Origin: Bacteroidetes bacterium GWE2_42_24
Lineage (GTDB): Bacteria; Bacteroidota; Bacteroidia; Bacteroidales; TTA-H9
Direction of reading: 5' to 3'
Length of the DNA: 64,000 nt
Assembly: GCA_001768515.1 (NCBI GenBank)
Contig: MEOA01000010.1
Span: forward strand, 1-64,000
Below, piece after piece: positions 2,761 through 17,108 of this stretch; within the stretch, counting starts at the first letter, position 1, and every line of letters starts with the position of its first letter. The notes beneath the pieces were generated by a model. It worked only from the letters and a program-made list of their open reading frames with translations, was not told the DNA's origin and ran no database searches. Position numbers and translations under genes: made by a program.

Positions 2761-2967
2761 ATGTCAGTAGAAAAGACAATCGGATCGTCAAGCTTGGTTG
2801 AAGTTATCGACCGTATTCTTGACAAAGGTGTTGTAGTTGATGCATGGGTAAGAGTATCACTGGTAGGCATCGAATTACTTGCTATCGAAGCAAGAATCGT
2901 TGTTGCTTCCGTTGAAACTTACCTGAAATATGCTGAAGCCATTGGGTTAACTGCAAAAGCCGCCTAA
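2761..2967 (+). CDS. gvpA: Gas vesicle shell protein GvpA, copy 2
   Basis: A second 68-residue GvpA, identical to copy 1 except for Ser at residue 2. By hand count about 21 codons differ silently between the copies, so the duplication is not very recent or the copies are not being homogenised, and the protein is under strong constraint. TAGGAG lies upstream of the ATG. A short inverted repeat (GTTTT-gctgt-AAAAC, 2971-2985) right after the stop codon could reduce read-through so that more shell protein is made than accessory proteins; this is an inference from position only. Confidence 0.98.
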
Positions 2968-3087: not shown

Positions 3088-3696
3088 ATGAATTACCAGC
3101 CTGAATTAAACATCGATGGTTTTCTTAACAACATCATCAGTTCCTACGAAAATAGAATTCAAAAAATTCAGACTGCATTCCAATCGTCAGAAAGCATATC
3201 AGAATCAAGCCATTTCCTGTTCGACAATGTCCATAGTACATTAAACGATCTCAGAAATGAAAGGGATCATTTAAATGCCAGGCTTTGCGAAACTCTTGCA
3301 AAAAATGGTTCACTCCGGAAAAAAGATTACAACACCATAATGTCAGGCATTCTTTGCGCGCTCAAAGAAAAAGAGAAAGAGGCCGAAACACAATTTTTAA
3401 GTTTTATTGAAACTCAGAAAGAAACAGCCCAGGCTCTTAAAACAAGCCTGTTAGGCATCAAAGATATTACTTCCCCGGATGTCACCGAAAATATTAATCT
3501 GGTAAAAATTCAACTTTCCAGAATTTCCGAATTACAGGAAATGAGAAAGGAAACGGTGATAAAAACCTTTAGTGATTTCCAGAATTTGCATAACCGAATG
3601 ATAGATAGCCTTAACGACTTACTTAATAAAGGCGATCAAATTCACATCAATGATATCAAAAAAATCAACGATCAGCTCATCAAAGATCTCAACTAA
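3088..3696 (+). CDS. Coiled-coil protein of the gas vesicle locus, unknown function
   Basis: This 202-residue protein has no recognised domain. It is highly charged, almost wholly helical by composition, and has no signal peptide or membrane segment. A stretch around residues 52-90 (LRNERDHLNARL, then RKKDYNTIMSGI) resembles the repeats of the GvpC-like protein encoded next (RLSTYKDLMSGI and RINDYNGVMKEI there), so the two may be distant relatives. Its position between gvpA and the GvpC-like gene points to a surface-binding or minor structural role. It has no obvious Shine-Dalgarno sequence, unlike its neighbours. Confidence 0.8.
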   Translation: MNYQPELNIDGFLNNIISSYENRIQKIQTAFQSSESISESSHFLFDNVHSTLNDLRNERDHLNARLCETLAKNGSLRKKDYNTIMSGILCALKEKEKEAETQFLSFIETQKETAQALKTSLLGIKDITSPDVTENINLVKIQLSRISELQEMRKETVIKTFSDFQNLHNRMIDSLNDLLNKGDQIHINDIKKINDQLIKDLN

Positions 3697-3738
3697 AGCG
3701 CAAACTAATTTATTCACAAAACAAGAGGAGAAACGAAA

Positions 3739-4890
3739 ATGGGACTATCATCAGAAATGAAGAATTTAAGTGAAGAAATGATTGCTTCATTTAAACAACG
3801 GATTAAAGAAAATGAAGAACTTGTTACCGATGTGCAGAAAACCCTCGATGGCTTTCGCAAAGACCACAAGGAAATGGCGGCTGTTTTAAGTGCCAACGCC
3901 AAAGCACTCAGGAAAGATCTGAACCAGAGCGAAAAAGAACGCCTGAGCACCTATAAAGACTTGATGTCAGGAATTAACAGCATTATCTCTACCATTCAAC
4001 AAGAGGTAGTTGCTATTCAAACTTCTGCATCCCACATGATCAAGGAGTTCACGACCGAAAGGTCGCAGATGGCCGAAGAATTGAATCAAACTTTTAAGCA
4101 GAACAGAGATGAAAGAACGGCGGACGGAAAAGTCCGTATGACAGAATTCAAGGCACTGATGAAATATATCAACAACGATATTACAAACATCAACGACGAA
4201 GTAGCTGCAATTTTTAAAAGCACCAATGAAATGCTCGAAAAGTTCGACAAAGAACATCAGGAAATGTCGGCTGAACTGAAAGCTGAATTAACCCAGAATC
4301 TGGCTGAACGGGTAGAATATACCCGGAATTTACTCCATGGGTTTCAGACAAGATTAGCAGAAATTGGCAAGGAAAATCAAAAGATGGCTCAAAAGCTACA
4401 AAAAGACCTGGCCAAAGGCGAAATGGGAAGAATTAACGACTACAATGGAGTAATGAAGGAAATTCATACCGCTATTAAAGGAATCCAGAAAGAAGTAAAG
4501 GAAGTTCAGAAAGCAACTTCTGTAGTGCTTGGAAATTACAAACAAGACCGCGGAGGTGCAACTGCCGAATGGAACAAAATGCAGGCTGCCATTGCCAAAA
4601 TCAGAAATACAGGAGTTGTAGAGCAACCAAAACCGGTGGAGAAGAAAGTCGTGACAGCTAATGAACCAGTTATTGAAACTCAGGTGGTAGTCAAGCCAAA
4701 AGCAGTAACTCCGATGACACTGGAGGAAAAGGTTCTGGATTATATCAACAACCACCCAAATGGGTTGCGGATTTCTGAAATGGAACAGCCTCTTGGGGAG
4801 ACGCGAATGAAACTTGGATTTATAGCCAAAGGTTTATTGGAAGAAGGGAAAGTCCAGAAACTGGACAACATCTATTTCCCGGCAAAATAG
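3739..4890 (+). CDS. GvpC-like 33-residue repeat protein with C-terminal winged-helix-like domain
   Basis: This is a 383-residue helical protein. Aromatic residues recur every 32-33 positions (F39, Y72, F104, F137, F169, F202, Y235, Y267), marking about seven repeats of two alternating kinds: one starts F-x-x-[DE]-x-x-[EQ]-M-[AS], the other [YF]-x-x-[LV]-M-x-x-I. Cyanobacterial GvpC, which binds and stiffens the outer vesicle surface, is built from 33-residue repeats, so the same role is likely here. Residues 292-325 are a Pro/Val/Lys-rich linker. Residues 326-383 (TLEEKVLDYINNHP, then RMKLGFIAKGLLEEGKV) look like a small winged helix, unusual for a vesicle surface protein. GAGGAG lies upstream of the ATG. 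The family name rests on repeat period and location, not on a sequence search. Confidence 0.75.
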   Translation: MGLSSEMKNLSEEMIASFKQRIKENEELVTDVQKTLDGFRKDHKEMAAVLSANAKALRKDLNQSEKERLSTYKDLMSGINSIISTIQQEVVAIQTSASHMIKEFTTERSQMAEELNQTFKQNRDERTADGKVRMTEFKALMKYINNDITNINDEVAAIFKSTNEMLEKFDKEHQEMSAELKAELTQNLAERVEYTRNLLHGFQTRLAEIGKENQKMAQKLQKDLAKGEMGRINDYNGVMKEIHTAIKGIQKEVKEVQKATSVVLGNYKQDRGGATAEWNKMQAAIAKIRNTGVVEQPKPVEKKVVTANEPVIETQVVVKPKAVTPMTLEEKVLDYINNHPNGLRISEMEQPLGETRMKLGFIAKGLLEEGKVQKLDNIYFPAK

Positions 4891-4978
4891 AATCAGGTTA
4901 TACTAAAATTATCGAAGTGGCCTATTCTTAAAAAGGGTAGTGCCATTTCGTACCAATAGCTTATCAATTTCCCAGATA

Positions 4979-5290
4979 ATGTCTAAAACAATAGAATGCG
5001 CATTCTGCAGTGGCACAGGTAAAGATCCTTATGCCTTACTCTCCGCTTCCTCGTGTTGTCTGGTGTGCGAAGGAACAGGACAGGTTGAAGTCGCTGAACC
5101 GGCAACAGTCTGTATTTTTTGTTCGGGCACAGGCAAAAACCCACTGGGAGCCAGAGTTACATGTATAGTCTGCGGTGGAAAAGGAATGAATTATCGCAAA
5201 GGCAATACAAAATGTGAACAGTGTAAGGGCTCGGGAAAATCGAGAGATGGCTTGCCTTGTCCCCATTGCGGTGGGGTGGGTTTAATATAA
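4979..5290 (+). CDS. DnaJ-type zinc finger protein (six CxxCxGxG motifs)
   Basis: About 103 residues, almost wholly made of six CxxCxGxG or similar motifs: CAFCSGTG, CLVCEGTG, CIFCSGTG, CIVCGGKG, CEQCKGSG and CPHCGGVG. This is the zinc-binding, substrate-contacting module of type I DnaJ, without a J domain or C-terminal domains. DnaJ itself has four such motifs. It may hold unfolded vesicle proteins or work with the J-domain GvpF/L protein (starting at 12155) and the DnaK (starting at 17133). A GTG at 4940 would add 13 residues, but the ATG at 4979 gives a natural N-terminus and is preferred. Confidence 0.8.
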   Translation: MSKTIECAFCSGTGKDPYALLSASSCCLVCEGTGQVEVAEPATVCIFCSGTGKNPLGARVTCIVCGGKGMNYRKGNTKCEQCKGSGKSRDGLPCPHCGGVGLI

Positions 5291-5507: not shown

Positions 5508-6425
5508 ATGAGTACCAATAACGAAACCAATACGATACTTGAACCTCGCAAAATGGCAAATTTTGTTGAAACAGAGTACATCAAAAACATCACCAACCGT
5601 GGTCTGACATATATAAAAGCAGGGTTTCCTGTTCATTTCAGAGGTCCGTCTGGAACTGGCAAAACAACAGTAGCGATGCATCTGGCAAGCAAAATAGGAC
5701 GCCCGGTTGTCATTATTCATGGCGATTCGGAGTATAAAACATCTGATCTGGTAGGAAGCGAATCGGGTTATAGGTTCAGAAAATTGGACGATAGGTTCAT
5801 CCATAGTGTCCACAAACAAGAGGAGGATATGGAAAAAAAATGGGTGAACAATCGACTGACAATTGCTGTAAAAAACGGATTTACATTAATTTATGATGAG
5901 TTTACCCGCTCGCGTGCTGAAGCTAACAATATCCTTTTGCCAATCCTTCAGGAACGAATGATGAGTACTTCAGCCGGAAAAGAGGCTGATTATTACATGA
6001 AAGTTCATCCTGACTTCTGCGCTATTTTTACTTCAAATCCTGAAGAATACGCGGGTGTTAACCGCACCCAGGATGCCTTACGTGACAGAATGGTAACGAT
6101 GGATCTCGATCATTTCGATTACGAAACCGAATTGAAAATTGCGATGGCAAAATCCAATCTCTCGTTGGAAGATACAGAGAAGATTGTGAAGGTTGTAAGA
6201 GGATTGCGCGAATCGGGAAAAACTGAGTTTGATCCAACTGTAAGAGGTTCAATCATGATCGCAAAAACTTTGGCAACATTGCACTCCTCTCCTTCAAAAG
6301 ACAACGAGATGTTTCGGTTAATCTGCCAGGATATTCTAACATCTGAAACCAGTCGCGTAGGTTCGAAAACCAATCAGGAAAAAGTCAGGTTAATTGTGAA
6401 CGACCTGATTGACCTTAATTGTTAA
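5508..6425 (+). CDS. gvpN: Gas vesicle protein GvpN, MoxR-type AAA ATPase
   Basis: A 305-residue AAA+ ATPase with Walker A GPSGTGKT at 46-53, Walker B LIYDEFTRS and the family stretch SNPEEYAGVNRTQDALRDRM. GvpN is found in nearly all gas vesicle clusters and is needed for full enlargement of the vesicles. It is thought to remodel or thread partners by ATP hydrolysis, like its MoxR relatives. AAGGA lies upstream of the ATG. Length is usual for the family. The protein looks intact. Confidence 0.97.
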   Translation: MSTNNETNTILEPRKMANFVETEYIKNITNRGLTYIKAGFPVHFRGPSGTGKTTVAMHLASKIGRPVVIIHGDSEYKTSDLVGSESGYRFRKLDDRFIHSVHKQEEDMEKKWVNNRLTIAVKNGFTLIYDEFTRSRAEANNILLPILQERMMSTSAGKEADYYMKVHPDFCAIFTSNPEEYAGVNRTQDALRDRMVTMDLDHFDYETELKIAMAKSNLSLEDTEKIVKVVRGLRESGKTEFDPTVRGSIMIAKTLATLHSSPSKDNEMFRLICQDILTSETSRVGSKTNQEKVRLIVNDLIDLNC

Positions 6426-6799: not shown

Positions 6800-7603
6800 A
6801 TGGAAACCGGGTTATATCTTTATTGCATCAGACAAAAGTGCAATGAACCGATAGAAGTTAATAAGACGATGTCTGGTGATGAGAAAATCCAAATCTTTCC
6901 TTTCATGGATTTGGAAGCCGTGATCAGTGATGTATCGATCGAGGAATTCAGTTCAGAGGAAATTCAGAAAAAAGCAGAAGAAGACCTGGAATGGATAAAA
7001 GGGAAAGCACAAATACATGAACAAGTAATTGAGCAGGCCATGAGAACGGGCGGTTCGGCCATTATTCCAGTAATTCCTATGCAATTTGGTGTGATTTTTA
7101 AAACAAGGGAAAAACTACAGGAAACCTTATTTACTAATCTTGAAAAATTCAGAAAAAGTCTAAGATTCTTAACCGGAAAACAAGAATGGGGTGTAAAAGC
7201 ATACCTTAATCAAAAAGTTTTTGAAGTATTTCTTGAGAAAGGAAACGAGGAATTAATGGCTAAAAAGAGAGAAGCAGAAGCTTTACCTAAGGGATTGTCC
7301 TTTTTTGCAAAGAAAAAAGCAGCCTCAACAATCGACGAAGTAAAAGAAAAAGAATTAGATAAAATCATCAACGAAATATATAAAAGTTTAGCCGAATCGG
7401 TTGTCAGTCTTCATAAAGCGAAAATTTTAGAAAAGGACTTCACATTAATGACTGAAGAAATGATTTTGAATGGATTCTATTTAATTGAAGAATCAAGATT
7501 AAATGAATTTAGAGGAAAAGCAGAAGAATTTCGGGAAAAGTTTAATCCACGCGGAATAAAAATTGAAATGAGCGGCCCCTGGCCTTCCTATCATTTCATT
7601 TAA
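6800..7603 (+). CDS. Gas vesicle protein GvpF/GvpL family, paralog 1
   Basis: A 267-residue member of the GvpL/GvpF family, minor proteins that bind GvpA and are thought to guide nucleation of the vesicle wall. Family marks are the N-terminal strand LYLYCIRQK, the middle VIPMQFGVIFKT, the EWGVKAYL segment and the C-terminal MSGPWPSYHFI. A Lys-rich insertion around LPKGLSFFAKKKA corresponds to the region that distinguishes F-type members. It is most like the paralog at 15532 and less like the three at 12155, 13197 and 13958. Confidence 0.93.
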   Translation: METGLYLYCIRQKCNEPIEVNKTMSGDEKIQIFPFMDLEAVISDVSIEEFSSEEIQKKAEEDLEWIKGKAQIHEQVIEQAMRTGGSAIIPVIPMQFGVIFKTREKLQETLFTNLEKFRKSLRFLTGKQEWGVKAYLNQKVFEVFLEKGNEELMAKKREAEALPKGLSFFAKKKAASTIDEVKEKELDKIINEIYKSLAESVVSLHKAKILEKDFTLMTEEMILNGFYLIEESRLNEFRGKAEEFREKFNPRGIKIEMSGPWPSYHFI

Positions 7604-7614
7604 TCTTTATAACA

Positions 7615-8148
7615 ATGACTGATTCCGAAAATAAAAATGCAACATTAGTTGATGCCTTAGATGTAGTCATTGATAAAGGTGCAGTACTTCACGGTGATAT
7701 CGTGGTACGAATTGCAGATTTGGATATGATAGCTATTTCACTAAGAGTAATCATTGTTTCCTTGTCGAAGTTATCATCTCAGCAAGGGAAAAGAGTTGAT
7801 GAAGTGCATGTTAACGAGTTGGGCGATGAGGTTTATTTACAGAAATTAGAAGCTCAAATTGAAAAGGCTCAAACACATATTAATCAAATGATTAATGCTG
7901 ACACACCAGAAGAAATAGAGGGTGGACTAGCACAATTAGTTTTAACTTTGATTAAGCTCATCGTTGATTTAGTGGAAAGAGAAGCCATGAGAAGAGTGGA
8001 AAGGGAGGAATTAACACAAATGGAGACCCAGAAACTTGGATTAAATCTGGAGGCCATTGAAACTAAAATTGAAGAACTCCGACTAGTCTTTGGACTTGAG
8101 GAAGATGATTTAAACATTGATTTAGGATCGCTCGGGAAACTGAGGTAG
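7615..8148 (+). CDS. Fusion of a GvpA-like (GvpJ/S) domain and GvpK
   Basis: One 177-residue frame holds two gas vesicle domains. Residues about 9-55 are a GvpA-family module of the GvpJ/GvpS kind (VDALDVVIDKGAVLHGDIVV, then IADLDMIAISLRVIIVSL). Residues about 95-177 match GvpK (EIEGGLAQLVLTLIKLIVDL, REAMRRVEREELT, and the tail FGLEEDDLNIDLGSLGKL). In most clusters as I know them, gvpJ or gvpS and gvpK are separate genes. No stop codon or frameshift lies between the parts, and the linker (about 56-94) is charged and helical. GvpK is essential for assembly in tested systems, and a fusion would keep it next to a shell-like subunit. Confidence 0.88.
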   Translation: MTDSENKNATLVDALDVVIDKGAVLHGDIVVRIADLDMIAISLRVIIVSLSKLSSQQGKRVDEVHVNELGDEVYLQKLEAQIEKAQTHINQMINADTPEEIEGGLAQLVLTLIKLIVDLVEREAMRRVEREELTQMETQKLGLNLEAIETKIEELRLVFGLEEDDLNIDLGSLGKLR

Positions 8149-8176
8149 TTTTTTGGATAATAATATAAATAATATC

Positions 8177-8482
8177 ATGGCAGAAGCAAAACTTAGCACC
8201 TCAACTGGCAATTCATCACTTCGGGATGTTTTGGAGCTGGTTCTGGACAAAGGCATTGTAATCGTTGGAGACATCCAAATCAAAATAGCAGATGTTGATT
8301 TATTGACGATCAAAATAAGGCTTTTGGTATGCGGTGTTGATAAAGCTTTAGAAATGGGAATTAACTGGTGGCAGGACGATCCCTACCTTTCGTCTAAAGC
8401 AAGAGAGAATGAGATTCAGCAACAGGAAGCTTTATTGGCACGACTTGAAAAACTTGAAGCACGTAATAATAAACTATCATAA
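8177..8482 (+). CDS. gvpJ: GvpJ-like minor gas vesicle protein
   Basis: A 101-residue GvpA-family protein: RDVLELVLDKGIVIVGDIQI, then IADVDLLTIKIRLLV and the phrase MGINWWQDDPYLSS, which is typical of GvpJ-type minor shell proteins. A charged tail (EIQQQEALLARLEKLEAR) follows. GvpJ is thought to take part in capping or nucleating the vesicle tips. A TTG codon at 8153 would extend the protein by eight residues; the ATG at 8177 is preferred. The letter J rather than M or S is less sure than the family. Confidence 0.85.
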   Translation: MAEAKLSTSTGNSSLRDVLELVLDKGIVIVGDIQIKIADVDLLTIKIRLLVCGVDKALEMGINWWQDDPYLSSKARENEIQQQEALLARLEKLEARNNKLS

Positions 8483-8504
8483 ATTTTTAAAACTATCAGA
8501 AAAA

Positions 8505-9023
8505 ATGGAAAACGATAAGAATAAGAACAAAAAGGATGAAGCCGGGTTTGAACTATTCGGACTTGGCGGGCTGTTCAAAGGCATCGAAAAATTAGTCGAT
8601 CTTGCAGGCAAACTCGAAGAAAATGGAGCCATGAGCAAAGAAGGCGAGCTTAATCTCGATCATATCAAAAAGGGAATGAAGGGTGTTTATGGTTTCACAA
8701 TCAATACTGCAGGTGGTGGATCACCAAAAGTGGAGACTTTCGGGAATATCAAAAAAACACCAGAAGGACCTAAAGTAGATGAAGAACGCGAACCCATTAC
8801 CGACCTCTTCGACGAAAAAGACGAAATCGTTATTATTGCCGAAATGCCTGGTATTGAAGAAACCGACATCAAAATTGATCTAAAGGAAGATATCCTTGAT
8901 ATCTCAGCCGTCAGTACAAGCCGTACCTATCGCAAAGAAATATTACTTCCGATGAAAGTTTTGCGATCCAATTTAAGTCAAAAATTCACCAACGGCATCC
9001 TCGAAATCAAGATTAAAAAATAA
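8505..9023 (+). CDS. gvpH: GvpH, Hsp20-type small heat shock protein
   Basis: A 172-residue protein. The N-terminal part (ELFGLGGLFKGIEKLVDLAG) is the glycine-rich segment usual in GvpH, and residues about 95-172 form an alpha-crystallin domain (IVIIAEMPGIEETDIKIDL, then the C-terminal NGILEIKIKK). GvpH is thought to keep vesicle proteins soluble during assembly. An upstream in-frame start at 8409 would overlap the previous gene in another frame and adds no family sequence, so the ATG at 8505 is chosen. Confidence 0.92.
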   Translation: MENDKNKNKKDEAGFELFGLGGLFKGIEKLVDLAGKLEENGAMSKEGELNLDHIKKGMKGVYGFTINTAGGGSPKVETFGNIKKTPEGPKVDEEREPITDLFDEKDEIVIIAEMPGIEETDIKIDLKEDILDISAVSTSRTYRKEILLPMKVLRSNLSQKFTNGILEIKIKK

Positions 9024-9028
9024 ATACC

Positions 9029-9988
9029 ATGACACTAACTGGATTAGAAAACAGCGACCTTAAGCTAATCATCTTCGGTGGAAAAGGTGGCGTTGGAAAA
9101 ACCAGTTGTGCAGTTGCTACAGCACTTGCGCTGTCAGAAAATTTCAAAACGCTGCTCATTTCAACTGATCCGGCACATTCGGTGTCGGATTGTCTGGGTC
9201 AGCAAATTGGGTATAAAATAGTGAAGGTGGATGGTGCGTCAAACCTTTCGGCCATTGAAGTAGTTGCAGACGAGGCACTATCCGTATTTAAAGAAACACA
9301 CCAAAGTGAGCTTAAAAAGCTACTGACAACATCAACCAACCTCGATAACGATGACATTAACGAAATGCTTAATTTGTCAATACCCGGAATTGACGAAATC
9401 ATGAGTTTCAAAACGATCATCGATTTCATCGGGGAGGGCTTATACGATAAATACGTTGTTGATACCGCACCAACCGGTCATGCGTTGCGCTTGATTTCGT
9501 CTCCAAAGATGCTCGATGCATGGATAAAAGTAGCTGCTAAAATGAGGTGGAAATATCGTTATCTGATCACCAGCTTTGCCGGAAGCTATAAACAGGATGA
9601 AGTTGACGCATTTTTATTGAGCCTGAAAAAAACGGTGAAGAGAATTGAAGGTTTGTTACAGGATAAAGCCAAATGCAACTTCATTCCTGTATGCATTCCC
9701 GAAACAATGGCGATTTCAGAAACCATTCGATTTCTTGCTGATTTGAGAGCTTTTAATATCGAGGCCCGACAAATCGTCATTAATCACGTGAATGTTTCAG
9801 AAGATTGTAGTTTTTGCAAACGAAGAAAGGCTGGACAATTAAAATATATTGAACAGATTAATGAAATTTTCAGCGAACTGAATAAGATCGAAATACCCGA
9901 TTTTGCTGAAGAAATACAAGGATTGGAGTCCTTAAAAAAATTAAGAAAATTTCTGTTCGGTAATCAACTAAACACCCAAACCCCATGA
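9029..9988 (+). CDS. ArsA/Get3-family ATPase of the gas vesicle locus
   Basis: A 319-residue P-loop ATPase with the deviant Walker A GGKGGVGKT at 17-25, switch motif STDPAHSVSD and VVDTAPTGHALRL. A Cys pair (C260 and C263 in CSFC) matches the zinc-binding CxxC of Get3-type dimers. In eukaryotes Get3 shields hydrophobic tail-anchored proteins, and bacterial ArsA pumps arsenite with ArsB. There is no ars gene here, and the gene sits between gvpH and a CDC48-type ATPase, so a targeting or holding role for hydrophobic vesicle proteins is more likely than arsenite export. It overlaps the next gene by four bases (ATGA), which implies coupled translation. Confidence 0.88.
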   Translation: MTLTGLENSDLKLIIFGGKGGVGKTSCAVATALALSENFKTLLISTDPAHSVSDCLGQQIGYKIVKVDGASNLSAIEVVADEALSVFKETHQSELKKLLTTSTNLDNDDINEMLNLSIPGIDEIMSFKTIIDFIGEGLYDKYVVDTAPTGHALRLISSPKMLDAWIKVAAKMRWKYRYLITSFAGSYKQDEVDAFLLSLKKTVKRIEGLLQDKAKCNFIPVCIPETMAISETIRFLADLRAFNIEARQIVINHVNVSEDCSFCKRRKAGQLKYIEQINEIFSELNKIEIPDFAEEIQGLESLKKLRKFLFGNQLNTQTP

Positions 9989-12141
9989 CCACAACTAAAA
10001 ACGATATAACACTGCGAGTAAAGGAAGCTTTGGTTAAAGACGTTGGGCGGGCAATCGCACGAATCGATCCAAAAGAAATGAAACTGAAGGGACTGGAAAG
10101 TGGAGACGTAATTGTGATTGAAGGCAAACGTTCCACACCTGTCAAAATTCTGCCTTGTTATCCTGAAGACCGTGACAAGAGCATTATCCAGATCGATGGA
10201 ATTACACGGGAGAATTGTCAGGCAGGGATCGACGAAAAAGTAAAAATAGCAACCACCAGCTGCCGCCAGGCAACAAAAATAAAACTCAAACCCGACACAA
10301 AATCCGGTTCACTGTTCAAAGCCGATGACGCTAAATACATTGGTTCGCTAATCAATGGCTTACCGGTCGTAAAAGGCGATAAAGTAAGGGCCAACCTTTT
10401 TGGATCGCGTTCGGTTGATTATACCATAACCGGAACCAATCCTGAAGGAGTTGTACTCATACATCCAAACACTACGTTCCAGCTTGAACTGGCCAGGCAG
10501 GACGGTGAAACTAAGCGCAAAATTTCGTACGAAGACATTGGTGGATTAGGGACTCAGGTTCAGCGCATCCGTGAAATGATCGAATTGCCACTGAAGTATC
10601 CGGAAATTTTCGAACGGCTAGGTATTCAGGCTCCTAAAGGCGTATTTATGTATGGCCCTCCCGGAACCGGGAAAACCCTTATCGTCAGGGCTGTTGCACA
10701 CGAAACTGATGCTTATTTTATCAACATCTCCGGTCCTGAAATAATGGGCAAATTTTATGGCGAAAGTGAAGGTCGCATTCGTAAAATTTTCGAAGAAGCG
10801 CAACAACATGCACCTGCTATTATATTCATTGACGAAATTGATGCCATTGCGCCAAAGCGTGAAGACATGGGAGGCGAAAAACAGGTTGAAAAGCGCGTTG
10901 TTGCTCAGTTGTTATCACTGATGGACGGCTTGGAATCACGTGGGAAGGTGATTGTGATTGGCGCAACAAACATCCCTAACGCGATTGATCCGGCACTAAG
11001 AAGGCCCGGACGTTTCGACCGTGAAATATCAATTTCAATTCCGGATAAAAAAGGAAGATTAGAAATATTACATATCCATACCAGAGGTATTCCGCTTTCG
11101 ATGGACGTTGATATGGAAAAACTTGCAGAGATTACACATGGTTTTGTTGGAGCCGATTTGGAAGCCCTGGCACGCGAAGCCGCAATGACTGCGCTGCGGA
11201 AAATACTCCCGCAAATCGATTTCGAAATGGCAGAAATTCCTTACGAACTTCTAATGTCGCTTGAAGTTACGATGGATAACTTCATGGATGCAATGAAAGA
11301 AGTGGAACCTTCGGCCATCAGAGAAGTCTTTGTTGAGGTGCCCGATGTAAAATGGGACGACGTGGGGGGGCTCGATGATATTAAACAAGCTTTAAAAGAA
11401 ACGGTTGAATGGCCTTTGAAATATGCCGATCTGTTTAAACGAGCCGACACAAAACCACCCAAGGGAATTATCCTTCACGGAAAGCCCGGAACCGGCAAAA
11501 CCTATCTGGCCAAAGCGCTGGCCAGCGAAAGCGGAGTAAATTTTATTTCAGTAAAAGGCCCACAGATTCTTAGCAAGTACATCGGTGAATCCGAGAAAGG
11601 AGTCCGCGAGCTCTTCCGGATGGCCAAACAGGCATCGCCCTGCATCCTGTTCCTCGACGAAATTGACAGCTTGACTCCCCGGCGTAGCGAAGATGGCTCA
11701 GGCTCAGGAGTACTCGATCGGGTAATCGGCCAGTTCCTTACCGAAATGGATGGCATTGAAGACCTTAAAGGTGTAATTGTGCTGGCTGCTACCAACCGGA
11801 TTGATTTAATTGATCCCGCCCTTTTACGCAGCGGCCGATTCGACCTGTTGTTTGAAGTTCCATTGCCTGATGTGAAAACCCGCGAGAAGATATTCAGTAT
11901 CCATACCCGCAGAAAAATATTGAGTAAAAAAATAAACCTGAACAAACTGGCAATAAAAACAGAAGGACTAACCGGATCGGACATCGAATTTATTTGCCGA
12001 AAAGCCGCCATGTTAGCCATCAGGCAACTCATTGATAAAAACCGTGATCTTGCTACTGAAAATGCAGGAGAACTCAGCATTACTGAAAAACACTTTGAGG
12101 AGGCCATCCAATTGGTACTAACCCAAAATGCATCCAAATAA
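9985..12141 (+). CDS. CDC48/VCP-type tandem AAA ATPase
   Basis: A 718-residue protein with the layout of CDC48/p97. An N-terminal double-psi-barrel-like domain (about 1-180) is followed by two AAA modules. D1 has GPPGTGKT near residue 225, a pore loop with KFYGES and FIDEIDAIAP. D2 has GKPGTGKT near residue 497, KYIGES and FLDEIDSLTP, with ATNRIDLIDPALLRSGRFD. CDC48 proteins unfold or extract proteins from complexes by hexameric ATP-driven threading. They are standard in archaea and less common in bacteria. Here the gene is coupled to the Get3-like gene inside the gvp locus, so a role in vesicle protein quality control or remodelling is inferred. Confidence 0.92.
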   Translation: MTTTKNDITLRVKEALVKDVGRAIARIDPKEMKLKGLESGDVIVIEGKRSTPVKILPCYPEDRDKSIIQIDGITRENCQAGIDEKVKIATTSCRQATKIKLKPDTKSGSLFKADDAKYIGSLINGLPVVKGDKVRANLFGSRSVDYTITGTNPEGVVLIHPNTTFQLELARQDGETKRKISYEDIGGLGTQVQRIREMIELPLKYPEIFERLGIQAPKGVFMYGPPGTGKTLIVRAVAHETDAYFINISGPEIMGKFYGESEGRIRKIFEEAQQHAPAIIFIDEIDAIAPKREDMGGEKQVEKRVVAQLLSLMDGLESRGKVIVIGATNIPNAIDPALRRPGRFDREISISIPDKKGRLEILHIHTRGIPLSMDVDMEKLAEITHGFVGADLEALAREAAMTALRKILPQIDFEMAEIPYELLMSLEVTMDNFMDAMKEVEPSAIREVFVEVPDVKWDDVGGLDDIKQALKETVEWPLKYADLFKRADTKPPKGIILHGKPGTGKTYLAKALASESGVNFISVKGPQILSKYIGESEKGVRELFRMAKQASPCILFLDEIDSLTPRRSEDGSGSGVLDRVIGQFLTEMDGIEDLKGVIVLAATNRIDLIDPALLRSGRFDLLFEVPLPDVKTREKIFSIHTRRKILSKKINLNKLAIKTEGLTGSDIEFICRKAAMLAIRQLIDKNRDLATENAGELSITEKHFEEAIQLVLTQNASK

Positions 12142-12154
12142 TAAAGTAAATCAC

Positions 12155-13195
12155 ATGGAAACGAAAGGAATTTACATTTACGGAATTATACCCAATTTAT
12201 ACAACGAAGAGATGTATCGGTCACTTGCGAATGCCGGCATTTACACCATTGCCTATCAAAATATTTCGGCCATTGTTTCCGAACGGGAGGAAGTATATTT
12301 TGATTTTACAGACCGTGAAGAACTGGGGCAATTATTGGTTGAACATCAGGAAACAATTGAAGATCTGACCGAAAAAGGATTCAATATGCTAATCCCTATG
12401 CGCCTCGGAACAATTGCAGGCACTAAGGAAGAGGTTATAAAAATATTGGCAAACGGACACGCCTTGATTGTTGATACGCTCAAAAAAATTGAAAACCTGA
12501 CAGAGATAGACCTTGCCGTAACCTGGGCCGATTTTCCGGCTACAATCCAAGAGATAGCCGGTCATCCCGACATCGTGACAATGAAAGCAGACATTCTGAA
12601 AAATGGAGACACTATTTCACAGATTGATCAGATTAAAATTGGAATGCTGCTTGAAGAAAAAATTAAAGAAAAAAACAAGACGATCGAATTAGACATTCTC
12701 AACGCGTTATCCGGTTTCTGTACAGATATAAAAACGCATGAGGTGATGAATGATCAAATGATTGCTAATTCTGCCTATCTCCTCAACCGGAATAGAAAAG
12801 AAAAATTTGAACAGGTACTCGACCGTCTCGACGAAGAATACAAAGGAATGCTGAACTTCAAAATGGTTGGCCCTCTACCGTGCTATAGCTTTTACACCAT
12901 CGAGGTTAAAGAACTGAATCCTGAGCATATTTCAGAGGCAAAAAAAGACCTTGGCATAAGCGAAACAACTTCGGAAGCAGAGATTAAAAGAGCCTATCAG
13001 GAAAAAGTAAAAGAGTTTCATCCGGATATAAATCAAGACAATGACACTTTAAATCATTTTAACCGGATCAAAAAAGCTTACCAAACCTTGCTGGATTATT
13101 TAGAAGCGACCAATATAACCTCGAAAGAAAACACCATTTCAGAGACGAATGAAAGAACAATTGAAAACTTGATTCTGGTAAGAATAAAAGAATAA
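12155..13195 (+). CDS. GvpF/GvpL family protein fused to a C-terminal J domain, paralog 2
   Basis: In 346 residues, positions about 1-250 are GvpF/L-like (GIYIYGIIPN, MLIPMRLGTIAG, and MVGPLPCYSFYTIE), and about 257-318 are a DnaJ J domain with the diagnostic HPD at 289-291 (YQEKVKEFHPDINQ) followed by FNRIKKAYQTLLDYL. J domains recruit Hsp70 and trigger its ATPase, so this protein could bring the locus DnaK (starting at 17133) to vesicle subunits bound by the GvpF/L part. An ATG at 12128 lies inside the end of the preceding gene; the ATG at 12155 places the start right before the family N-terminal strand. One to two bases separate it from the next gvpF/L gene. Confidence 0.9.
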   Translation: METKGIYIYGIIPNLYNEEMYRSLANAGIYTIAYQNISAIVSEREEVYFDFTDREELGQLLVEHQETIEDLTEKGFNMLIPMRLGTIAGTKEEVIKILANGHALIVDTLKKIENLTEIDLAVTWADFPATIQEIAGHPDIVTMKADILKNGDTISQIDQIKIGMLLEEKIKEKNKTIELDILNALSGFCTDIKTHEVMNDQMIANSAYLLNRNRKEKFEQVLDRLDEEYKGMLNFKMVGPLPCYSFYTIEVKELNPEHISEAKKDLGISETTSEAEIKRAYQEKVKEFHPDINQDNDTLNHFNRIKKAYQTLLDYLEATNITSKENTISETNERTIENLILVRIKE

Positions 13196-13196
13196 T

Positions 13197-13970
13197 ATGC
13201 AGCGCGACGGAAAATATATTTATTGCATAATTGCTTCAGATTACGATACTAATTTGGGGCCAATAGGTGTGGGTGGACGCGGCGATCTGGTTTCGACCAT
13301 TGGTTTTGACGGACTCTGCATGGTAGTCAGCGACCATCCGATCAGTAGGTTCGTAGTCAATCCTGAAAACATGCTCGCGCACCAAAAGGTGATCGAAGCA
13401 GCGATGAAGGAATTCAAAAGCGTACTCCCAATCCGGTTCGGAACCATCGCGGCTACACCCGATGAAATCAGAAACTTGCTGTATCGCAGATACAGCGAGT
13501 TTAAGGAATTGCTCAGGCAATTCGAGAATAAGGTAGAACTGAATGTCCGCGGAACCTGGAAGAACATGGTGAATATCTACAAAGAAATCGATCATGAAAA
13601 TGCTGAATTGGGCAATATAAACTCAGAATTGGAAATGATTGAAGATAAGGACATCAGAAATCAAAAAATTATTGATGCTGGCAATTTAGTAAAGGCAGCA
13701 CTGATCAAGAAAAAACAGGCTGAAACAGAATTAATTATTGATGCTTTCAAACGATCTGTATTTGAATATAAGCTGAATAAAACAAGCAGTGAAGCCATGT
13801 TTATGAATACCGCCTTTCTTGTGAACAGTGGTCGGGAAGTAGAATTCGACAACATCATGGCTGACCTTGGCAACAAATTCGAGGGGCGGAGCGACTTCGT
13901 TTACACAGCACAATTACCAATTTTTAATTACATCGACCTGAAAATTTTTCCTGAAAAATGGGAATTGTAA
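13197..13970 (+). CDS. Gas vesicle protein GvpF/GvpL family, paralog 3
   Basis: A 257-residue GvpF/L protein: KYIYCIIASDYD at the N-terminus, LPIRFGTIAATPDEI in the middle, MFMNTAFLVNSGREVEFD and a C-terminal YTAQLPIFNYIDLKI. It shares the early phrase GPIGVGGRGD with the next paralog (GPIGMGKRAD), so these two arose from one duplication. The frame ends inside the first codons of the next gene if that gene starts at 13958. Confidence 0.92.
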   Translation: MQRDGKYIYCIIASDYDTNLGPIGVGGRGDLVSTIGFDGLCMVVSDHPISRFVVNPENMLAHQKVIEAAMKEFKSVLPIRFGTIAATPDEIRNLLYRRYSEFKELLRQFENKVELNVRGTWKNMVNIYKEIDHENAELGNINSELEMIEDKDIRNQKIIDAGNLVKAALIKKKQAETELIIDAFKRSVFEYKLNKTSSEAMFMNTAFLVNSGREVEFDNIMADLGNKFEGRSDFVYTAQLPIFNYIDLKIFPEKWEL

Positions 13971-14776
13971 ACAAACTTCTGAAAGACACCCCTATGAGCA
14001 ACGATCTGGAAATACCCAAAGAAGGGAAATACATTTACGGAATTATCAGAAACTCAGCCCCAATTGACTATGGCCCGATTGGAATGGGAAAACGTGCCGA
14101 CCGTGTTTACGGGGTAACCTACAATGGCATCACTGCCATTGTAAGCGCTTCGCCAATCATCGTTTATGAGGCTCGTAGAATTAACATGATCACCCACGAA
14201 AAGGTATTGGAAGAGATGATGAAACAGTTTACCGTTCTTCCAGTCCGTTTTTCAACTATCTCTGAGCACGATGATGATACCGGAATCATGAGGATCATTG
14301 AAAAAGATTACAGAAAATTCGACGAGATGCTTGCTAAGATGGAAGGGAAGAAAGAACTTGGACTAAAAGTCTTAGCAAAGGAAACCGAGATTTATGATAG
14401 TATCATTGAAAAATACGACGACATTAAGGTTTTGCGCGGAAAACTGATGAACATGCCTGCAGACAAAACCCACTACCAGCGTGTAAAAATTGGAGAAATG
14501 GTTGCCGAGGCATTGAGGAAAGAGACCGAGTACTTCAAAGACACCATCATCGCGGCTCTAAATCCGCTATCGGAAGATGTAAAAATTAACGACAACTACA
14601 GCGAAATGATGATCCTCAACGCTGCCTTCCTGATCAAAAACGAATCGGAACCTGCATTTGACAAGGTGGTAAACGACCTTTCAGAACAGTATGGCCGATT
14701 TATGATCTTCAAGTATACAGGGACCTTACCCTTATACAATTTTGTAAACCTGATAATCAACACGAAAGGAGTATAA
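13958..14776 (+). CDS. Gas vesicle protein GvpF/GvpL family, paralog 4
   Basis: Up to 272 residues, GvpF/L-like: KYIYGIIRNSAPIDYGPIG, TVLPVRFSTISEHDDD, MILNAAFLIKNESEPAFD and YTGTLPLYNFVNLII. The first ATG (13958) overlaps the previous gene by 13 bases; a second ATG at 13994 would give a start just ahead of the conserved N-terminus (MSNDLEIPKEGKYIYG) and is equally likely. It lies one base from gvpG, so translation of the two is probably coupled. Confidence 0.9.
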   Translation: MGIVNKLLKDTPMSNDLEIPKEGKYIYGIIRNSAPIDYGPIGMGKRADRVYGVTYNGITAIVSASPIIVYEARRINMITHEKVLEEMMKQFTVLPVRFSTISEHDDDTGIMRIIEKDYRKFDEMLAKMEGKKELGLKVLAKETEIYDSIIEKYDDIKVLRGKLMNMPADKTHYQRVKIGEMVAEALRKETEYFKDTIIAALNPLSEDVKINDNYSEMMILNAAFLIKNESEPAFDKVVNDLSEQYGRFMIFKYTGTLPLYNFVNLIINTKGV

Positions 14777-14777
14777 T

Positions 14778-15008
14778 ATGCTTCTATTCGACGACATATT
14801 GTTCGCACCCTTAAAAGGCATCATTTTTCTTGCAGAGAAAATCAACGAAGTGATCGAGAAAGAAACCTCTGATGAAGGAGCTGTAAAAGAAAGATTAATG
14901 GCCTTACAACTTAAGTTTGAGATGGATGAAATTGACGAGGTTGAATACGACAAAAGGGAAGACGAATTGCTGAAACAGCTCGAAAACATAAGAACAGAAA
15001 ATAAGTAA
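14778..15008 (+). CDS. gvpG: Gas vesicle protein GvpG
   Basis: A 76-residue protein with the GvpG pattern: a hydrophobic N-terminal part (DDILFAPLKGIIFLAEKI) and a charged helical part with the family phrase LKFEMDEIDEVEYDKREDEL. GvpG is a small essential assembly protein usually found beside gvpF and gvpL, as here. AAGGAG lies about seven bases upstream of the ATG. Confidence 0.93.
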   Translation: MLLFDDILFAPLKGIIFLAEKINEVIEKETSDEGAVKERLMALQLKFEMDEIDEVEYDKREDELLKQLENIRTENK

Positions 15009-15021
15009 AAAAGGAGAAAAA

Positions 15022-15225
15022 ATGGACACATTTAAATGCCCTAAATGCGGGAAAACCACCAGTAGCATAGAGAAATTTTGCATTAACTGTGGCGAACCCC
15101 TCGATATTTATTGCCCCGAATGTGGCGATAAATGGCGCTTCATGTTCGAATACAAGTTTTGCCCTAGTTGTGGACATAATATGAAAAAAGAAAATACACA
15201 GGGCAAACGTACTTCTAATAAATAA
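15022..15225 (+). CDS. Small double zinc-ribbon protein
   Basis: A 67-residue protein with four cysteine knuckles: CPKCG, CINCG, CPECG and CPSCG, followed by a Lys/Asn-rich tail. This spacing would bind two zinc ions. Such ribbons commonly mediate protein-protein contact or nucleic acid binding; nothing in the sequence decides which. It is embedded between gvpG and gvpO with a strong AAGGAG site, so it belongs to the locus. I know no standard gvp letter for it. Confidence 0.8.
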   Translation: MDTFKCPKCGKTTSSIEKFCINCGEPLDIYCPECGDKWRFMFEYKFCPSCGHNMKKENTQGKRTSNK

Positions 15226-15237
15226 GGAGGGTAAGCA

Positions 15238-15510
15238 ATGAGTAACATAATTGACGTAAAAAATACAGTGGTCAGTTTTCTTAAAGAAAACATTAACTGC
15301 TATGATGTAACGGTCATTAAGATTGAAAAAAGCAAAGAAAGCTGGAACACCGTTGCCGAGGTTTATGAAGATGATTCATTTCTGAAATCGATGAACCTCC
15401 CACCCAAACAAGTGAGACTCTTTTATGCTGTCAGGATGGATGAAAAACTTGAAATTACAGCCTTCGAGCGACTAACCTCTTTTGCAGGAATGGATAGTGA
15501 TGAACAGTAA
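15238..15510 (+). CDS. gvpO: Gas vesicle protein GvpO family
   Basis: A 90-residue protein resembling GvpO: ESWNTVAEVYEDDSFLKSM, then QVRLFYAVRMDEKLEITAFE and a short acidic tail. GvpO is essential for vesicle formation in haloarchaea and present in many bacterial clusters; its exact action is not settled. AAGGAGGG lies about six bases before the ATG, one of the strongest Shine-Dalgarno sequences in the window. Family is assigned from the W..V.EV and Y.V..D patterns and context. Confidence 0.82.
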   Translation: MSNIIDVKNTVVSFLKENINCYDVTVIKIEKSKESWNTVAEVYEDDSFLKSMNLPPKQVRLFYAVRMDEKLEITAFERLTSFAGMDSDEQ

Positions 15511-15531
15511 TTCCAATTGAGCCCGGCAACA

Positions 15532-16326
15532 ATGACAAACGATTTAATATATGTTTATTGCCTTACGAACAGTCCTCCTGAACTCCATGAAAACATGGAG
15601 TTCAAAGGCTTGAAATCTCATTCGTTTGGTGATTTTCATGTTGTCATTAAATATGTTGCTGAAAGTGAATTTTCAGAGGAAAACCTCAAACAAAATTTAT
15701 CAGATCCCGAATGGAAAGAATCTAATGCCAGCAATCATGTTGAAGTGATTAAAATGCTAATGAATGAGAATACAGTCATCCCATTCAGATTTGGCACTAT
15801 TTTTAATGAAGTTGAGAGTTTAAAAAAATTCATAACAGATTATTCTGATTCCTTATTAGAAAATTTTCATCACATCGGAGGCAGGGAAGAGTGGGGTGTT
15901 AAAGTTTTCTACGACCGAAAGTTACTTAGCAATCAGATCGACGAGTTAAGCGAGGAAACGGCAGCATTGGAAAAACAAATCATGGCAAGTTCGCCAGGAA
16001 AAGCATTTCTTCTGAAAAGGAAGAAAAGTGAATTAGTCGAAAATGAAATGGACCGTATTTGTAAAAACTACGGACAAAACTATTTCGATGAGTTTAAAAA
16101 GCTGAGTATATCAACCTATCTTAATAACCTGCTTCCTAAAGAATTTACAGGAAGAGAAGATACCATGATTCTCAATGCTGCTTTCCTGGTCAACAAATCT
16201 AACGCGAATGATTTCATTAATACAGTTGATGCATTGAGAAAAAAGGACGGAAATTCAGGATTTTTTATTGAAACAAAAGGACCTGAACCACCATTTAGCT
16301 TCGTCAACCTCAAAGAAAATCAGTAA
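15532..16326 (+). CDS. Gas vesicle protein GvpF/GvpL family, paralog 5
   Basis: A 264-residue GvpF/L protein: LIYVYCLTNSPPEL, NTVIPFRFGTIFNEVESL, EEWGVKVFYDRKLL and the C-terminal ETKGPEPPFSFVNL. The segment SSPGKAFLLKRKKSEL is typical of GvpF-type members. It is closest to paralog 1 (starting at 6800), forming an F-like pair apart from the three in the 12155-14776 block. A TTG at 15517 could extend it by five residues; the ATG at 15532 is preferred. Confidence 0.92.
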   Translation: MTNDLIYVYCLTNSPPELHENMEFKGLKSHSFGDFHVVIKYVAESEFSEENLKQNLSDPEWKESNASNHVEVIKMLMNENTVIPFRFGTIFNEVESLKKFITDYSDSLLENFHHIGGREEWGVKVFYDRKLLSNQIDELSEETAALEKQIMASSPGKAFLLKRKKSELVENEMDRICKNYGQNYFDEFKKLSISTYLNNLLPKEFTGREDTMILNAAFLVNKSNANDFINTVDALRKKDGNSGFFIETKGPEPPFSFVNLKENQ

Positions 16327-16418
16327 AGAATAATCACAGTAATATCTACCATTCAAAAGACGTTAATATACACGAGTTACTATACCGGGTGCTAAATAAA
16401 TGCCAAATATCTTTAACT

Positions 16419-17108
16419 ATGAGGACCCTGACCTATATTCCAATCATTCATTCGGTTGCCGACATGGGTACTCTGGGCGAAGAACTTAAGCACAAAAGCG
16501 TTTCCGGACTTGGCGAAGATTTATGGCAAAATCATACAGATACCGTAAATGGCTACTGGGAAGCGATTGATTCCTATTTCGGGAACATTGACCAAAATTT
16601 AAAAGGAACAAAAATTTACCAGGACGGAATGTTCGTTGATGGGGAAATAGCAATGAAATTGATTGCCGACGGCGTTAAATCAGGAAGTAAAAATTCAGAA
16701 ATCGTATCGAAACTGATCAATCGGGGAGCCATACTGGTTAAGACTGAAGATTTTAAAATGGTTAAAGCCGAATACGACGAACTTCAATTAATCTTAAAAT
16801 CCAAATCCAGAATAAAAAAGCTTATTCATCTGGTCAAGTACAAAATATTGAAACCCATTTTATTAAGAAAACGTGACCGGTTCATTACAGCTACGATAGA
16901 TAAAACACTGGAACAGAATGAAACAGGAATTCTTTTTATCGGAGCATATCACAATGTGATGAAAAAGCTGCCCAAAGATATCACCGTAATTGAGCTGAAG
17001 GAAGTTGTAAAAATCCGAAAATATCAAAAAACGATTCAATCTCATTCAAAAAACAAAATCGCTCAACGTGAACTACTTTCTCAATACATGGTTAAAAAAA
17101 TAGCTTAA
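16419..17108 (+). CDS. Conserved-looking protein of unknown function in the gas vesicle locus
   Basis: About 229 residues, soluble, with no membrane segment. It begins RTLTYIPIIHSVADMGTLGE and has KGTKIYQDGMFVDGE and SKLINRGAILVKTEDF in the first half, a Lys-rich middle and LFIGAYHNVMKKLPKDI near the end. The last motif is loosely like the GAGH-type motif of TraB/PrgY proteins, but this is not enough for a name. A GTG at 16389 would add ten residues; the ATG at 16419 gives the better N-terminus. It lies 24 bases upstream of dnaK in the same direction and closes the locus with it. Confidence 0.75.
   Translation: MRTLTYIPIIHSVADMGTLGEELKHKSVSGLGEDLWQNHTDTVNGYWEAIDSYFGNIDQNLKGTKIYQDGMFVDGEIAMKLIADGVKSGSKNSEIVSKLINRGAILVKTEDFKMVKAEYDELQLILKSKSRIKKLIHLVKYKILKPILLRKRDRFITATIDKTLEQNETGILFIGAYHNVMKKLPKDITVIELKEVVKIRKYQKTIQSHSKNKIAQRELLSQYMVKKIA

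Follow-up and report, generated by a model that had tools for sequence, protein, structure and literature searches.

A GvpF/L paralogue with a C-terminal J domain, a probable Hsp70 co-chaperone of gas vesicle clusters

A gene in the gas vesicle cluster of the window (the whole stretch of 64,000 nucleotides that was analysed) encodes a GvpL/GvpF body, a J domain and a C-terminal tail in a single open reading frame. Judged by its sequence, the product appears to be a GvpF/L paralogue and a class C J protein at once. The fused protein is probably a co-chaperone dedicated to gas vesicle biogenesis, which would serve the DnaK-assisted assembly of GvpA-family subunits. The architecture, its conservation, its common origin, the cluster context and the occurrence of DnaK paralogues in some clusters were established directly, and we infer that the best explanation would be a J domain that brings Hsp70 to GvpA.

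The open reading frame is free of stops and translates into 346 residues. An alternative start is possible at 12128, but the alignments of the orthologues begin at residue 1 as counted from 12155. Pfam assigned residues 5-247 (bases 12167-12895) to GvpL_GvpF (PF06386; 169.5 bits, cut-off 23.6) and residues 266-314 (bases 12950-13096) to DnaJ (PF00226; 47.7 bits, cut-off 27.8), and the HPD motif was found at residues 289-291 (codons 13019-13027). The sequence-only reading had proposed an HPD-bearing J domain in frame behind a GvpF/L body, with the junction at about base 12925; translation, Pfam and the position of the HPD bear this out, and the boundary was found near that base. Membership in the GvpL/GvpF family is indicated by the profile score, by the GvpF fold of the predicted model and by the location in a gas vesicle cluster, with GvpN, GvpK, GvpG and GvpA-family genes all within 10 kb of the fused gene. 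The protein falls far under the cut-offs of the strict NCBIfam equivalog models, reaching 75.8 of 350 bits for GvpF of cyanobacteria and 49 of 200 for GvpL. In the J domain, the HPD lies between helices II and III and helix II is basic. Pfam found GvpL_GvpF and one DnaJ domain and nothing else, which places the protein in class C, and the NCBIfam DnaJ models matched solely inside residues 252-328. Domain databases probably display the architecture under the two Pfam names.

The AlphaFold model of the fused protein (input of 54 sequences, mean pLDDT 88.5) contains both the GvpF body and the J domain. The body was superimposed on GvpF of Anabaena (6l5d; Z 22.1, 236 residues, rmsd 3.0) and on GvpF of Microcystis (4qsg; Z 21.3, 235 residues). 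These proteins share the whole body fold and come from the same kind of gene cluster, whereas the fused protein adds about 100 C-terminal residues that make up the J domain and the tail. Residues 260-324 matched a stretch of Rbj (Z 8.2, rmsd 1.4), a G protein with an additional DnaJ domain according to the title of a paper. Foldseek matched the DnaK-bound J domain of 5nro over 54 columns (rmsd 1.0, E 0.036), its E-values for J-domain chains being weak (0.0076 and above). Helices were predicted on either side of the HPD, at residues 274-288 and 296-323. Many members carry a tail behind the J domain, with last residues such as ILVKIKE. The tail of the modelled protein holds a predicted strand at 339-344 (block confidence 89 for residues 341-346), and the model is poor just before it (residues 321-340, block means 54 and 58). 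A hint that the tail packs on the GvpF/L body comes from a single weak match, 1ufl (Z 8.0), which extends over residues 115-346.

The queries for a scan of named genomes were GvpF/L bodies cut from fused proteins, so that the J domain could not attract matches, and the best 80 of 127 confirmed relatives were retained. J-like sequence followed the body in 80 of 80 retained loci; given the fused-body queries, this means that this paralogue was never seen without J sequence and says nothing of GvpF/L proteins in general. Record titles place the loci under 17 phylum-level labels, some of them doubtful; Bacteroidota (43) and Chlorobiota (11) account for most loci. L123 (Nitrospinae label) has nearly the same C-terminal part as L124 and L125 (Omnitrophota labels), and L145 (Thermodesulfovibrionales label) and L146 (Actinomycetota label) are much alike over the C-terminal part. 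A search of viral contigs for the subfamily gave 56 stretches that fit a pattern, none of which was confirmed.

Table 1. Genes of the gas vesicle cluster in the window
Feature	Position	Strand	Remark
Two GvpA genes, tandem	2466-2672, 2761-2967	+	named from sequence and position; proteins differ at residue 2 alone
Six-CxxCxGxG-repeat protein, free-standing, 116 residues	4940-5290	+	resembles DnaJ zinc-binding domain, 32.2 bits, just under the Pfam cut-off of 32.7
GvpN AAA ATPase	5508-6425	+	
GvpF/L paralogue FL1	6800-7603	+	
Gas_vesicle (GvpA family) domain fused to GvpK	7615-8148	+	
GvpA-family protein	8153-8482	+	best NCBIfam match GvpJ, below its cut-off
Hsp20-like protein	8409-9023	+	
ArsA/Get3-like ATPase, single-domain	9029-9988	+	best solved relatives ArsA1 and Get3-type proteins
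CDC48/p97-like AAA ATPase with CDC48_N	9985-12141	+	immediately upstream of fused gene
Fused gene	12155-13195	+	GvpL/GvpF body, J domain and C-terminal tail, one open reading frame
GvpF/L paralogue FL3	13197-13970	+	immediately downstream of fused gene
GvpF/L paralogue FL4	13958-14776	+	
GvpG	14778-15008	+	
Small double zinc ribbon protein	15022-15225	+	
GvpO-like	15238-15510	+	20.7 bits, below the Pfam cut-off of 25
GvpF/L paralogue FL5	15517-16326	+	
Cluster DnaK paralogue, 601 aa	17127-18932	+	shortened C-terminus; TIGR02350

The fused gene is surrounded by Hsp20, ArsA, GvpN, GvpG, GvpO-like and GvpA-family genes (Table 1), and the window carries five GvpF/L paralogues. FL3 is the downstream neighbour of the fusion in 71 of 78 loci; since locus lengths vary, gene counts per locus are lower bounds, and L138 and L142 were excluded from the neighbour counts. 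The tandem GvpA pair is the likely client of the fused protein. A second fused architecture of the cluster joins a GvpA-family domain to GvpK. The CxxCxGxG-repeat protein adjoins gvpN and has relatives in 36 of 78 loci. Two proteins of 202 and 383 residues are encoded between gvpA and gvpN (3088-4890); the first has relatives in 49 of 78 loci and the second in 50. Between FL5 and the cluster DnaK lies a 239-residue protein (16389-17108) with relatives in 12 of 78 loci and no match in Pfam or NCBIfam. Upstream of gvpA, the stretch 557-1948 reads as a response regulator with a sigma-54-type ATPase domain and is a possible regulator of the cluster.

The function of the fused protein was considered in the light of the Halobacterium system. 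In published work, GvpF was the sole partner of GvpA in split-GFP tests (PMC7688916), and GvpA aggregates could be dissolved only by 80% formic acid (PMC7688916). A review proposes that GvpF may act as a chaperone of GvpA (PMC9501494). GvpL interacts not with GvpA but with its relatives GvpJ and GvpM (PMC7688916, PMC9501494). The earlier statement that GvpF/L proteins bind GvpA is thus in print for Halobacterium GvpF and does not extend to its GvpL; it could be GvpL, not GvpF, that is the functional counterpart of the fused paralogue, and with five GvpF/L paralogues in the window the client of this one may be other than GvpA. Because Halobacterium GvpF binds GvpA and some fusion clusters hold DnaK paralogues, the reading in which the J domain recruits Hsp70 to GvpA gains support. 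By analogy with Halobacterium GvpF, the GvpF/L body would bind a GvpA-family shell subunit, or an accessory complex that receives this subunit. The J domain, given its HPD and fold, would dock on DnaK and trigger ATP hydrolysis, and DnaK would clamp the hydrophobic subunit, maintain its solubility and release it to the growing shell, so the direction would be assembly. Most genomes would use the housekeeping DnaK as the partner, and the window's organism and a few others would use the short-tailed DnaK paralogue of the same cluster. Recruitment of Hsp70 by the J domain appears to be the most economical reading, and it suggests that Hsp70 helps to handle a sticky shell protein. A GvpF/L paralogue with an Hsp70 docking site under purifying selection would point to Hsp70 as the energy source that keeps GvpA soluble until it enters the shell. 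Such a role could be tested by the change of one motif, and it might be of help in engineering gas vesicles as ultrasound reporters.

The main rival explanation is turnover, which we regard as unlikely. Misassembled GvpA, or the shell itself, would then be marked by the GvpF/L body, and DnaK, called in by the J domain, would work with the p97-like ATPase to dissolve aggregates or dismantle vesicles. Auxilin, which dismantles clathrin coats with Hsc70, provides the model, and protein extraction and unfolding are activities of p97 as well as of Hsp70. The CDC48-like gene is the nearest upstream cluster gene of the fusion in 70 of the 74 loci with enough upstream sequence, which favours turnover. 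However, the fusion and the CDC48-like gene are not strictly linked, because each occurs without the other: four fusion loci (L036 from Octadecabacter, L120 from Prolixibacteraceae JC049, L144 and L145) have no CDC48-like gene in the stretch read, and the cluster of G021 has the CDC48-like gene but no fusion. The fused gene is, moreover, located among assembly genes. The sequence does not separate assembly from turnover by itself.

An Hsp70/J-protein to Get3 relay serves tail-anchored proteins. The window's cluster likewise unites a J protein, an Hsp70 and a Get3-like ATPase for a small hydrophobic protein; this is an analogy only, and the subunit would be delivered to a protein shell that is growing, instead of to a membrane. 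Taken to its full extent, the analogy would turn the cluster into an entire chaperone relay devoted to a single insoluble shell protein, comprising the GvpF/L-J protein, its own DnaK, a DnaJ-type zinc-finger protein, Hsp20, and the Get3-like and p97-like ATPases. In this relay the GvpF/L-J protein would let Hsp70 catch GvpA, the Get3-like ATPase would take the subunit over before its insertion into the shell, and the p97-like enzyme would remove failures. We put this forward as speculation and think it distinctly unlikely as a whole; if true, it would parallel the eukaryotic pathway for tail-anchored proteins, the membrane being replaced by a gas-filled protein shell. Gas vesicle clusters bearing ArsA were reported in 2010 from Polaribacter, Pelodictyon and a Geobacter (PMC2963123). 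They resemble the window's cluster in holding gvpN, several gvpL/F, hsp20 and arsA together, but the available excerpts of that paper make no mention of a J domain, Hsp70 or CDC48.

The proposed co-chaperone role draws attention to the DnaK copies. The cluster DnaK passes the NCBIfam prok_dnaK model (TIGR02350, 903.6 bits, cut-off 822.55) and shares 71% identity with the housekeeping DnaK of the genome (601 vs 637 residues, the housekeeping length as cut by script). It is without the acidic tail that ends the housekeeping copy, a long C-terminal tail being a usual feature of DnaK and not a definition. The housekeeping DnaK is encoded on a second contig, and a third contig carries DnaJ together with GrpE. 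In the tree, four short-tailed DnaKs (window, L081, L103 and L180) grouped at 100/100, apart from the housekeeping DnaKs. Three of them (window, L081 and L103) lie in fusion-holding clusters. The fourth, L180, comes from another contig of L081's genome, which has its fusion elsewhere, and stands near GvpF/L-like and GvpK-like frames; no fusion was found on this 15 kb contig. A Nitrospirota fusion cluster (L145) also carries a divergent DnaK, a 591-residue frame that is read in the direction of the fused gene and separated from it by gas vesicle genes. It fell outside the Bacteroidota short-tailed group on a long branch whose placement is unsure, and it looks like a separate recruitment. On this sequence evidence, a cluster DnaK was apparently recruited twice, once in the Bacteroidota clade that includes the window and once in Nitrospirota.

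The idea that the fusion is generally accompanied by a cluster DnaK was rejected. An Hsp70 was found near the fusion in 3 of 78 loci, that of L145 being a partial match at the locus edge, and at least 6.8 kb of downstream sequence was present in 46 of 80 loci. The genomes probed for DnaK numbered 19, three of them (G001, G021 and G472) without the fusion. Among the 16 fusion-bearing genomes, a second DnaK match was found in three (G000, G697 and G146). For most carriers the argument thus comes from the J domain alone, because 13 of the 16 genomes showed one DnaK above the limit. The second DnaK of G697 (G697:C208:756-2540) is a short open frame of 610 aa. In Psychromonas ingrahamii 37 (PMC2405808), the DnaK-like genes 1232 and 1233 lie not far from the gas vesicle genes 1248-1262, possibly by chance.

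The HPD was retained in 79 of 80 loci, 78 of which have it in frame as read and one (L142) behind a single in-frame stop. In L142 the interrupted gene spans 3825-4988 and further gas vesicle genes lie around it. L101 is the locus of the 80 in which the motif is replaced, and a second loss was read in G119; both clusters are decayed, with mere scraps of the window's cluster genes around. Basic residues of helix II were frequent in the 78 HPD-bearing frames, with K/R at -11 in 75 and at -10 in 66. The HPD is invariant in alignment A5 (54 of the 80 loci, the window and the Octadecabacter row; 26 cut, broken, HPD-less or judged redundant loci omitted) and in alignment A6 (53 loci and the window; L106 and the Octadecabacter row dropped), which is a property of the chosen rows. 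The J-region dN/dS was about 0.06-0.23, computable in 12 of 13 hand-picked locus pairs, and that of the body was 0.04-0.28 in 13 of 13 pairs. The J domain is under purifying selection and, the two ranges being alike, is conserved about as strictly as the body.

These data bear on the proposal that the J domain is a mere structural or interaction module that does no Hsp70 work. The Pfam match is limited to profile positions 6-55 of 63, and a DnaK gene is nearby in few loci, both of which would suit such a module. However, the conservation of the HPD and of the basic helix II residues over loci with 17 phylum-level labels, together with the DnaK paralogues in fusion clusters of two separate groups, makes a module of this kind very improbable.

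The origin of the fused paralogue was assessed with a GvpF/L tree of 100 rows, built from 22 hand-picked loci and the window; the J part was cut off and weak or short GvpF/L frames were dropped. All 21 of 21 fused bodies, including the long-branched Octadecabacter row, formed one side of one branch (100/99). No unfused row fell inside the fused group and no fused row outside it in this 100-row tree. Because the fused bodies group together even with the J part removed, the tree is consistent with a single old paralogue rather than repeated fusions.

The fusion was also followed across assemblies. Among 60 genomes including the window's own, one other carried the full fusion in the same order; it belongs to a different family and the identity is 44%. 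In a plasmid collection, the fusion was found in Octadecabacter arcticus, on a plasmid recorded as a complete sequence, where it is annotated just as a GvpL/GvpF protein. Since many separate assemblies, this complete plasmid included, read through the junction in the same frame, an assembly join or a chance readthrough of two genes, against which the sequence-only reading had advised a check, is practically excluded.

The phylum sample comprised 395 genomes searched at E 1e-12 with a profile built from three fused proteins, more distant GvpF/L proteins falling outside the count. It yielded 33 GvpF/L-positive genomes, 20 of which reach the J domain (read from match ranges) and 13 of which do not. 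Sixteen of the 20 fused genomes belong to one genus, one is degenerate and one is split over contigs. In the unfused 13, the matches of G184, G196 and G331 run over stops; the sequence past the stop in G196 and G331 is other sequence without an HPD, that of G196 resembling GvpG. In the order sample (393 genomes), the whole fusion was present in 12 of 14 GvpF/L-positive genomes; the two without it, G021 and G472, are incomplete assemblies, and the G021 cluster is otherwise long. The HPD was read in part of the fused genomes of these two samples. G001, from the same genus as the window's genome, gave no match to the fused protein, so the distribution is patchy even within a genus. A class search around the Pseudomonadota-labelled MAG G454 covered nine genomes and gave two matches, G454 and one without the J part.

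On these counts, the fusion is common where such clusters occur. The earlier view that it is no standard architecture therefore stands in part: the two solved GvpF chains (250 and 253 residues) are without a J domain, and plasmid matches from Nostoc and Rhodococcus stop at query residues 246-249, but the fusion prevails in the order and phylum samples. The J domain is not needed everywhere, because it is missing from the solved GvpF chains and was not found in the 13 unfused genomes of the phylum sample or in G021 and G472.

A J domain joined to an unrelated domain is also found in HscB, which pairs with the client IscU and the Hsp70 HscA. Some fusion clusters likewise add a specialised Hsp70, as HscB has HscA. 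The fused protein differs in that its partner domain is GvpF/L, its J domain is C-terminal to that domain and its Hsp70 would be DnaK. HscB is a class C J protein, and a review from 2021 stresses the diversity of class C, with reference to a catalogue of partner domains (PMC8215388). Literature searches gave no description of a GvpF/L-J fusion among the matches listed, and the J-protein catalogue of Barriot et al. 2020 may list the architecture. DnaJ goes unmentioned in the available excerpts of three gas vesicle papers (PMC4982088, PMC11445434, PMC4606965). Other unusual GvpF/L architectures were seen at L160 (8156-10297) and L162 (6122-9850), where acidic, alanine-rich open frames of 714 and 1243 residues, respectively, contain a GvpF/L stretch.
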